IMG/VR virus record: IMGVR_UViG_3300048026_001054
Span: 1 to 34,194 of that record
Length of the DNA stretch: 34,194 nt
Source: a virus
Reading direction: 5' to 3' (one strand)
Part shown: piece after piece, positions 28,564-30,997 of the stretch
How the letters are laid out: every line of letters starts with the position of its first letter
How positions within the stretch are numbered: position 1 is the stretch's first letter
Program-made: the position numbers and the translations under genes
Notes under the pieces: model-generated
What the model saw: the letters and a program-made list of their open reading frames with translations, nothing else
Told to the model about the DNA's origin: nothing
Database searches by the model: none

Positions 28564-29295
28564 TTGGATCTACTAGAGAGATTTGAGAAGGTGAGGCCCG
28601 CGGGCAGGGACACCTGGTCATGCTGCTGTCCTGCGCATGACGATTCATCACCATCATTAACGGTCAGCCAGGAAGCAGGGAAGTGGCTGTTTCACTGCTT
28701 TGCCGGGTGCAGCACGTACGACATTTTGGAGGCTGTTGGTCTGAAGTGGGGCGACCTATTCCCAGACTCCAACTACAAAAGCGATACGGCCGATTACGCC
28801 AGGCAGCTGTGGGGCGAGGCCAGCGCGGGTTGTGTTCAGTCCCATCCTTACGCCATGAAAAAGAAGATCGCCCACGACTTTGGCGCCCGGCGGGGCAGGG
28901 CCTCTGGTCGGATTGTTGGGCGCGATAAGGATTGCATCATCATCCCTATGCGCTCCTGGGACGGCGACCTGGTTGGTGTTGAGTGCATCAATTGGGAAGG
29001 CGACAAGCAAACCTTTGGCTCCAAGGGCCAGCTAATCCTGGGGCACCCAGAGGGCGCCGAATACGTCCACGTTGCTGAAGGCTGGGCAACCATGTGGGCC
29101 ATCTCCCAGCTGCGCCCCAGGTCATTCGCCGGGGTGGTGGCCTTTGGCAAAAAGCTACGGCAGAAGGCTGAAGAGATCAGCAATCGGTTTCCAGGCACCG
29201 CGGTCACTCACCCAGAGGGAGCTGATAACCAGGACGTTTGGGATTACTGGAGCGCCGGGCACGGCGATCAGTATTTCGGAGGGAAGTGCTTATGA
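28564..29295 (+). CDS. DNA primase with CHC2-type zinc finger and TOPRIM-like region
   Basis: 243 residues with a TTG start at 28564 (AAGG five bases upstream). Residues 19-67 are a primase zinc finger: SCCCPAHDDSSPSLTV, then WLFHCFAGC and DILEAVGLKWGDLFP, with likely ligands C22, H25, C45 and C49. The region from about 115 to 225 resembles a TOPRIM fold (IIIPMRSWDGDLVGVE, VHVAEGWATMWAISQL, HPEGADNQDVWDYW). The glutamate in VAEGWATMW fits the first TOPRIM motif. I do not see the usual D-x-D after the next strand, where the sequence reads VVAFGKKLRQ. It heads the replication operon with an initiator and helicase and would lay RNA primers. Confidence 0.82.
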   Translation: MDLLERFEKVRPAGRDTWSCCCPAHDDSSPSLTVSQEAGKWLFHCFAGCSTYDILEAVGLKWGDLFPDSNYKSDTADYARQLWGEASAGCVQSHPYAMKKKIAHDFGARRGRASGRIVGRDKDCIIIPMRSWDGDLVGVECINWEGDKQTFGSKGQLILGHPEGAEYVHVAEGWATMWAISQLRPRSFAGVVAFGKKLRQKAEEISNRFPGTAVTHPEGADNQDVWDYWSAGHGDQYFGGKCL

Positions 29296-29402
29296 CAGAT
29301 CAGGAATGGCTGGCGCTGGCCCTGGCGCCCACATGTGAAGAGGAGCGCGAGGCCGTAAACAAGGGCCCCGACGATAGTGGGATTTTGATAGATGAGTCAT
29401 GA
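29292..29402 (+). CDS. Small acidic protein between primase and initiator
   Basis: 36 residues: MTDQEWLALALAPTCEEERE, then a polar, acidic end. The ATG overlaps the primase stop (ATGA), and its stop lies 11 bases inside the next gene. This bridges what would otherwise be a gap of nearly 100 bases and maintains coupling through the operon. Too short to recognise. The coupling on both sides is the main evidence that it is translated. Confidence 0.45.
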   Translation: MTDQEWLALALAPTCEEEREAVNKGPDDSGILIDES

Positions 29403-30045
29403 AGCGACCAACTGGGCGTCAAAGGTGCGCGGCATTAGCCCGATGCAGAAGCTGGTTCTAATGCTTATGGCTGACTGCCACAACGGTCACACCCGGGAGT
29501 GTTTCCCCTCCATCGATACGTTGGCAGAAGACGCATGCGCATGTCGCAGAACAGTAATACGGGCCATTCATGGTCTTGAGGCTGCGGGGCTCGTTTCAGT
29601 CAAAAAGCGGGGTGGGAAATCTAACCGATACATCCTGCATACCCGTGTCACAGAGTCACCCGTGTCAGAGAGTCACGGGTGTCAGAGAGTCACTAAACCC
29701 GTGTCAGAGAGTCACCCCACCCGTGTCACTGTGACACCCGAACAGGAAATAACAGGAAAGAACAGGAATAAGGGCGTTAAAAAAATCTCTGAAAAAAAAC
29801 TGCTTTCCATTGGTGATGAAATTCGATGCTGGGATCTCTGGGTTGAATACCGGACTGAGATTAGAAAACCGTTAACGGAGAAGGGGTGGGAATTGCTCGC
29901 CAATAAGCTACGGAAATATAGCGCAGCGGAGCAGGCGGCAGCGATTGAGAAATCCATCACCAATGGATGGCAGGGCTTGTTCCCTGAGAAAAGCGACAAG
30001 CCTGCTGATGACCTGCCAATGAGCGCGAGGTATCGGAATGGGTAA
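29392..30045 (+). CDS. Replication initiator, lambda O-like (HTH)
   Basis: 217 residues from ATG at 29392. Residues 1-80 form a helix-turn-helix domain of the HTH_36 type used by phage initiators (WASKVRGISPMQKLVLMLMA, then CFPSIDTLAEDACACRRTVI and AIHGLEAAGLVSVKKRGGKS). A repetitive linker follows, encoded by the iterons, and then a basic lysine stretch. Residues about 140-200 form a C-terminal domain (CWDLWVEYRTEIRKPLTEKG, later AIEKSITNGWQGLFPEK) of the kind that recruits a helicase. An origin inside the initiator gene, with primase before and helicase after, matches lambda O/P-type organisation. It overlaps the helicase gene by eight bases. Confidence 0.78.
   Translation: MSHEATNWASKVRGISPMQKLVLMLMADCHNGHTRECFPSIDTLAEDACACRRTVIRAIHGLEAAGLVSVKKRGGKSNRYILHTRVTESPVSESHGCQRVTKPVSESHPTRVTVTPEQEITGKNRNKGVKKISEKKLLSIGDEIRCWDLWVEYRTEIRKPLTEKGWELLANKLRKYSAAEQAAAIEKSITNGWQGLFPEKSDKPADDLPMSARYRNG
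29645..29790. other. Predicted replication origin: iterons, 10-bp repeats, A-rich tract
   Basis: Four iterons of GTGTCAGAGAGTCAC start at 29645 (one variant with CA for GA), 29662, 29679 and 29701. A fifth unit, GTGTCACTGTGACAC at 29723, is a perfect palindrome. Start spacings are 17, 17, 22 and 22 bases. Three tandem 10-base repeats AACAGGAA-NN follow at 29741, 29751 and 29761, then an A/T-rich stretch to about 29800. This is the lambda-like layout of initiator sites followed by an unwinding element, inside the initiator gene. Confidence 0.75.
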
Positions 30046-30997
30046 GATCATTGAGTTTAACGGCGAGTTTAGTCTCAGGCAGCACCGGGACCGAATTGCG
30101 GATCTACGGGTGGGAGAGATTGTTAGGCCGGCCGACGTTAGGGCGGCGGTGGACGCCGACATGGACCGAGGCAAGGGGCCGCACGGTGCGCGTTGGCCCT
30201 GGCCCAGTTCCCGGGATGATTTCGCGCTAGGTGAGGGCTGCATTTCGGTATTGGCGTCTGATGGCGGGGTGGGCAAATCCACCCTGGTCAGCCAGTGGGC
30301 CCTATCGATGATGCCTGATTTCCCTGTTGGGATAATCTCAGTGGAAGAGGGCACGATTAAGGTTGTGCGCCGGCTGATCACGCAGTTCAGCAACACTGTG
30401 GAGCCTTCCAAGTCTCAACGTGAGCAGTATTGGGATACCGCTGCGCACCGCAACGCTTTGATTTACGACTGCCCCCAGGCCATCAAGCCGGTTGATGCCT
30501 ATGCCGCCTGCTGGTCGATGTTTGATGAGGGCGCCAGGGTCATTTTCCTGGACAACATGCAATCGTGCGGGTGCAGGACAGACTCAGATGAGGAGCGCGA
30601 TTTCATTAACGAGGTCAAGGCGATATGCCAGGCCACGAAAATGCACATCGTGCTTGTCCACCACGTACGCAAGACGGGCGGCGATTCTGAAAACCCCAAG
30701 CCCACCCGCGACAGGGTGAAGGGCAACGGGGCGATAACCCAGCTGGTGGATAACGTGTTGCTGTTGTGGCGAAACCGAGACCGCCAGGAGGCCCGGCGCC
30801 TGGAAGACTACGGGCACCCGCTCACTGAGGATCAGCGCCGGGTCTTAAACGAGAATCCAGATTTGGAGCTGACGGTCAGCAAGCAGCGAGACGGTGAGGA
30901 TCACTGGGTTTTGGCGCTATGGGATGGCAATGGCTTGACGTTCAAGGATGAGCGTTATGGCGATGATCTGAAGCTAGGCAGGATCAGCCTTATATGA
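30038..30997 (+). CDS. Replicative helicase / RecA-fold ATPase
   Basis: 319 residues from ATG at 30038. Walker A is ASDGGVGKST (residues 73-82, K80), preceded by GEGCISVL. SVEEG at 101-105 fits the catalytic glutamate position. Walker B is ARVIFLDNM with D172. IVLVHHVRKTGG (204-215) is the conserved histidine/arginine segment of the DnaB/RepA class, and AITQLVDNVLLLWRN follows with the usual spacing. The protein lacks an N-terminal DnaB dimer domain and is closer in size to RepA-type hexameric helicases. With the neighbouring primase it would make a primase-helicase pair. It overlaps the next gene by four bases. Confidence 0.85.
   Translation: MGKIIEFNGEFSLRQHRDRIADLRVGEIVRPADVRAAVDADMDRGKGPHGARWPWPSSRDDFALGEGCISVLASDGGVGKSTLVSQWALSMMPDFPVGIISVEEGTIKVVRRLITQFSNTVEPSKSQREQYWDTAAHRNALIYDCPQAIKPVDAYAACWSMFDEGARVIFLDNMQSCGCRTDSDEERDFINEVKAICQATKMHIVLVHHVRKTGGDSENPKPTRDRVKGNGAITQLVDNVLLLWRNRDRQEARRLEDYGHPLTEDQRRVLNENPDLELTVSKQRDGEDHWVLALWDGNGLTFKDERYGDDLKLGRISLI

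Follow-up and report, generated by a model that had tools for sequence, protein, structure and literature searches.

In the window (the whole 34,194-nucleotide stretch of viral DNA that was analysed), an initiator gene is flanked, within positions 28,564 to 30,997, by separate genes for a primase and a DnaB-like helicase (Table 1); in phage vB_Pae_U7 (L233), a single primase/helicase gene follows the O-like gene. The window also carries NinB, NinG, Erf, integrase, excisionase-like, and repressor-like genes, which together mark the phage as temperate. No close DNA relatives of positions 1 to 25,000 were found among sequenced phages. The contig is incomplete, since a terminase-like frame (named from reading its sequence) runs past its end. 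A P-type loader, the kind of protein that brings in the host DnaB, was found nowhere among the neighbouring genes that were scanned; because part of the genome is missing from the contig, this does not prove that the phage has no loader.

Table 1 Features of the initiator locus, in positions of the window
Feature	Position	Strand	Sequence or basis
Primase-like gene (CHC2 zinc finger)	28564..29295	+	Domain/profile matches
Initiator gene, 217 aa: winged helix, repeat-encoded flexible linker, helical C-terminus	29392..30045	+	Pfam, PHROG, AlphaFold2
HTH_36 winged-helix DNA-binding domain, residues 14-68	29431..29595	+	Pfam and structure prediction
Recognition helix, residues 52-64 (Arg53 codon, 29548-29550)	29545..29583	+	AlphaFold2; column association
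Iteron 1	29645..29659	+	GTGTCACAGAGTCAC
Iteron 2	29662..29676	+	GTGTCAGAGAGTCAC
Iteron 3	29679..29693	+	GTGTCAGAGAGTCAC
Iteron 4	29701..29715	+	GTGTCAGAGAGTCAC
Iteron 5	29723..29737	+	GTGTCACTGTGACAC, perfect palindrome
Putative unwinding element: 10-bp repeats and A-tracts	29740..29826	+	Low duplex stability
Three AACAGGAA repeats, 10-bp period	29741..29768	+	Synonymous-recoding test
C-terminal helical domain, residues 144-191, then ...NGWQGLFPEK	29821..29964	+	Identity in relatives
DnaB_C/AAA_25 helicase-like gene, overlapping the end of the initiator gene	30038..30997	+	Domain/profile matches

The initiator matches HTH_36 in Pfam (E = 1.6e-16; other HTH models are weak) and PHROG 678, "replication initiation O-like", over residues 14 to 202, which include both the HTH and the C-terminus (6.6e-28). 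AlphaFold2 predicts a confident winged helix (residues 1–82), an unstructured stretch (residues ~87–142), and three C-terminal helices, with pLDDT values above 90 for most of residues 11 to 70 and below 50 for most of residues 87 to 142. The low-confidence stretch coincides with the codons of the repeats and the AT-rich tract discussed below. The C-terminal domain is 37 to 47% identical in relatives, in several of which the HTH and the repeats are quite different, and from its position only it is proposed as the part that would recruit the helicase. Searches by sequence identified no solved structure for the initiator, and the HTH profile gives weak MarR-type matches. Similarly, a fold search of solved structures returned nothing at E < 0.001, and the "initiator" structure 4pt7 is matched only weakly (E = 0.02).

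The original prediction for this region described five iteron-type units with spacings of 17, 17, 22, and 22 bp, followed by three 10-base repeats and an A-rich tract. Both parts of this description are confirmed. The 21-nt unit starts at 29641, 29658, 29675, 29697, and 29719, and each copy contains a GTGWC-N5-GWCAC dyad core (the iterons in Table 1). These are the only five such dyads in the 34-kb contig, in which 0.15 would be expected and shuffled versions contain at most two (n = 100). Each iteron is an inverted repeat: the core is GTGTC-N5-GTCAC, an imperfect dyad, in four of the five, and the full palindrome GTGTCACTGTGACAC in the fifth. The palindrome at the end of the array had been suggested to represent a dimer site or an anchor. 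The palindrome itself stands; however, every one of the five units is a dyad built of GTGWC half-sites, which in the last unit are identical, and this unit is therefore not a different kind of site. Moreover, symmetric and asymmetric dyads are mixed in many of the initiator families with Arg at residue 53 (see below), and a special anchoring role was rejected.

On the 3′ side of the iterons, the copies of AACAGGAA(A) at 29741, 29751, and 29761 give 17 of 18 matches, a score equalled by 1 in 20,000 synonymous recodings, and A-tracts follow at 29779–29785 and 29792–29799. The adjoining downstream tract has an AT content of 65%, compared with 48% for the gene. In terms of duplex stability, 60- and 80-bp segments at 29740–29826 fall in the least stable 0.25 to 0.3% of the contig, in which several other spots are weaker. 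Cumulative GC skew was uninformative as an origin marker. It has a local minimum at ~26.5–28 kb, coincident with a block of minus-strand genes, and does not mark the array; because the skew follows gene orientation, it cannot place the origin.

The same DNA was also predicted to encode a repetitive linker (VTESPVSESH, VTKPVSESHP) and to work as protein and origin at once. The first point is borne out, as the repeats lie in linker codons. The units have frame offsets 1, 0, 2, 0, and 1, such that all three frames are used. Neither 17 nor 22 is divisible by three, so the copies are translated in different frames and yield different peptides (VTESP, VSESH, CQRVTK, VSESHP, and VTVTP). In 3,000 synonymous recodings of the stretch the maximum was three copies, while the number observed is four (2 mismatches) or five (3 mismatches). 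The three-frame reading and the failure of the recodings to reach the observed copy number show that the repeats are constrained as DNA, and the recoding result for the 10-bp repeats leads to the same conclusion. These results suggest that selection acts on the repeats as DNA binding sites and that the encoded peptide would be a tolerated flexible linker. Every comparative test agrees with, and thus supports, a lambda-type origin within an O-like initiator gene and the dual use of the linker DNA.

To look for this arrangement elsewhere, the dyad was used as a probe without reference to the protein, and both IMG/VR and bacterial genome contigs were scanned. Tandem GTGTCA-N4-GTCAC pairs are present at 39 places in IMG/VR, 22 of which are inside an HTH initiator ORF, and four further places are within 6 to 61 bp of one; a scrambled-motif control gave one match. 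Widening the probe to a pair of GTGTC-N5-GWCAC and GTGWC-N5-GWCAC identified at least 113 new loci in IMG/VR. Among the matches listed, the tandem dyads are inside an HTH initiator ORF at 91 of 113 loci and were assigned to no detected HTH ORF at the other 22. The profile used to detect HTH initiators was seeded from the loci found with the first probe, and these fractions therefore describe this initiator family and are no survey of all origins. In the genome scan, the strict probe gave 118 matches, mostly 8-bp (GTGTCACC)n arrays, with only 8 in HTH ORFs. These 8-bp tandem arrays, among the matches L070–L187, occur in many genomes, mainly Chloroflexi, outside initiator genes; as they are unrelated to initiators, they were set aside as candidate origins.

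The spacing between dyads follows a rule. Across 88 families the spacings are bimodal, with 27 cases at 17–18 bp and 143 at 21–24 bp, two at 20 bp, and none at 19 bp, and for spacings up to 50 bp their distribution modulo 3 is even (78/74/71). In the 15 families that have both classes, the short spacings precede the long ones in 14 and never come last, and the order is mixed in the remaining family (p = 1.2e-4). Loci L045 and L060 have spacings of 17, 17, 22, and 22 bp, exactly as in the window. In the families L047, L048, L065, and L066, the dyad spacings are mostly multiples of three, and the arrays encode long peptide repeats such as PPSDIVTPPSDIVTP. The AT-rich side also recurs. In 73 of 86 GTGWC families, the 60 bp downstream of the array have a higher AT content than the gene, and the same holds for 26 of 27 O-like cases chosen without the GTGWC motif, a partly redundant set with some near duplicates. 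Repeats of the EPxxEP type (e.g., EPVKEPVKEPVNEP) are encoded by AT-rich DNA just after the iterons in L033, L068, L193, L238, L246, and others; this DNA may form a second repeated element in the unwinding tract, comparable to AACAGGAA of the window.

Residue 53, at position 2 of the recognition helix (Arg in the window), is the HTH column most associated with the use of GTGAC (eta-squared 0.50; next column, 0.33). With Arg53, GTGAC is present in 28 of 34 units and 294 of 532 half-sites, and GTGTC is also used. With Ser, Ala, or Lys at this position, GTGAC is present in 0 of 24 units and 0 of 244 half-sites, that is, GTGTC only (Fisher 5e-11). The residue at 53 switches within one family, L058 (SRRTV, GTGTCACACAGTCAC) versus L276/L351 (SRSTV, GTGTCACACAGACAC), and within a second, L309 versus L313/L319/L326/L328. 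The L042–L061 group taken with L276/L351, and L309 taken with its four relatives, represent natural one-residue Arg to Ser switches with a change from GTGAC to GTGTC. It was predicted beforehand that GTGAC-N5-GTCAC arrays would all be accompanied by Arg53. In a new scan for GTGAC arrays, Arg was found in 34 of 35 clusters (three of them from families already in the first set), and 48 of 106 loci were assigned to no detected HTH ORF. The one exception, L406, has Ser53 (SSKSPVIKAI) together with GTGAC, in GTGACCTGTGGTCAC repeats; in this initiator, Lys replaces the usual Arg later in the recognition helix. When column 53 is left out of the tree building, the residue class changes ~20 times on the tree; of 18 independent Arg/non-Arg pairs, 14 differ as predicted, none go against the prediction, and four are ties (p = 1.2e-4). 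The window, with Arg53 and GTGAC in 4 of its 10 half-sites, fits the code. The covariation between residue 53 and the half-sites ties the initiator to its own linker DNA, and the simplest reading is that the window protein would bind this DNA.

Related initiators show how the repeats travel. Many O-like initiators collected without GTGWC have different linker repeats at 17–18 or 22–24 bp, and these often exceed 60 synonymous recodings. A window-type C-terminus is present in L007–L020, L026, and L028 (37–39% identical in those compared). BLAST does not align the HTH of the three initiators compared from the main group with that of the window, and these initiators have, in the same linker, a different 22-bp-spaced repeat around CCCTCACGCCA. 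At the level of sequence, the repeat goes with the HTH and not with the C-terminus, and in L007–L020, L026, and L028, where the HTH differs strongly from that of the window and most linkers contain the CCCTCACGCCA repeat, HTH and origin seem to have been exchanged together. O-like initiator frames without an annotated gene lie between annotated neighbours in a Providencia IncC plasmid (L243:2501-3148) and in phage Pam5 (L236:2501-3100). HTH initiators with linker repeats are also found in an Arsenophonus plasmid (L248) and a Sulfitobacter plasmid (L244), where they adjoin replication P or DnaB_C genes; L248 also has parM. The initiator module may therefore drive plasmids or phage-plasmids too.

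Intragenic iteron origins are already known from lambda and pSK41. In lambda, the O iterons are inverted repeats of 19 bp, and an AT-rich region adjoins them (PMC7466680). As in the window, lambda and the Stx lambdoid phages have imperfect inverted-repeat iterons that lie within the initiator gene and separate the codons of the DNA-binding N-terminus from those of the C-terminus, and lambda has an AT-rich/A-rich tract downstream of the iterons with a purine-rich top strand. The lambda spacings (20, 24, and 23) share with the window a shorter first spacing; however, a spacing of 17 bp is absent from lambda. The iteron sequences also differ (TCCCTCAAAACGAGGGA in lambda and GTGTCAGAGAGTCAC in the window, which has five units), and the window initiator is an HTH_36 protein whereas lambda O is Phage_rep_O, a domain that Pfam does not report in the window initiator. 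Furthermore, the window has its own primase and DnaB-like helicase genes and no P-type loader was found among the neighbouring genes scanned, whereas lambda has such a loader. Hence, the description of this locus as a "lambda-like" origin inside the initiator gene applies to the mechanism but does not extend to membership of the lambda group, given HTH_36 and the phage's own primase and helicase. In pSK41 Rep, the N-terminal domain binds boxes central in rep, and the central linker encoded by the ori is dispensable as protein (PMC5703833). The position of the array in the window initiator gene and the predicted disorder of its linker agree with the pSK41-type RepA_N arrangement; the RepA_N Pfam model has no match in the window initiator. 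Repeats within an O-like gene have already been described for Pseudomonas phage MD8 (PMC8508860). The spacings in the MD8 and LESphi3 O-like initiators (17, 17, 17, and then mostly 21–23) are short and then long, as in the window. Their repeat sequence differs from that in the window, and downstream of the MD8 O-like gene lies an annotated P-like gene. Phages mEp021 and mEp554 and the phage of L031 have the same tandem arrangement in the linker, but their C-termini differ. The 15-mer GTGTCAGAGAGTCAC in L031 is identical to that in the window, mEp554 has four GTGTC-N5-GACAC dyads, and the motif in mEp021 is a variant that the strict GTGWC pattern does not cover.

Taken together, the DNA-level constraint, the gene neighbourhood, the recurrence in HTH initiators, the AT-rich downstream side, and the covariation of recognition helix and half-site, all of them computational results, indicate that a temperate phage very probably has its replication origin here, inside the gene for its own initiator. 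We infer binding, melting, helicase recruitment, and origin activity, which would proceed as follows. The N-terminal winged helix would bind the 15-bp dyads, probably as dimers whose two subunits each contact one GTGWC half-site, and five such dimers would build up an O-some-like complex. The neighbouring AT-rich tract (29740–29826) would then melt, the C-terminal domain would recruit the DnaB-like helicase encoded by the next gene, and primers would be made by the product of the primase gene at 28564 or by the host primase.

Winged-helix proteins often regulate genes by binding dyads, and the same winged helix would bind here if the repeats were an operator that represses the replication operon, through the initiator or another regulator, with the origin elsewhere. 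We consider this unlikely, as the array is located mid-gene, a simple scan of 27.5–31.5 kb detected no sigma-70-like promoter, there is no further GTGWC dyad in the contig, and an AT-rich tract on a fixed side combined with two-valued spacing is typical of origins. Plasmid iteron arrays can also act in copy-number or incompatibility control. With this precedent, the repeats might bind the initiator mainly for such control, while melting and helicase loading occur at a different site; this is quite improbable for an array that is the only one of this dyad and is joined directly to the weak-duplex tract. Finally, the encoded peptide does contain repeats (VTESP, VSESH) and such linkers tolerate change, but that the repeats are a low-complexity linker or slippage product, similar in DNA because the peptides repeat and without function as DNA, is very hard to credit given units in three frames with different peptides, 0 of 3,000 recodings matching the observed count, the identical dyad in unrelated initiators, and the covariation of recognition helix and half-sites.

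An origin embedded in the initiator gene thus remains the preferred reading, and with it a replication origin is assigned to an uncharacterised phage. Beyond this phage, the data point to what is likely a very widespread class of phage initiators with a readable origin code, in which residue 53 sets the half-site and the dyads are packed at 17–18 or 21–24 bp with the tight pairs distal to the unwinding tract. In the literature of one open-access library, no account was found of the residue-53 link, of the 17/22 spacing and polarity rule, or of the breadth of the GTGWC dyad. The link between residue and base offers a cheap and direct test of how initiators choose their origin, and the two spacing classes in their constant order provide a testable hint of how initiator complexes assemble on DNA. 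A single dyad motif would mark the origin in phage initiator genes of a large class, so that many phage origins would be findable by sequence. Moreover, with the code obeyed in unrelated reading frames and in many phage families, origin and initiator specificity would be predictable, and perhaps switchable by a single residue.
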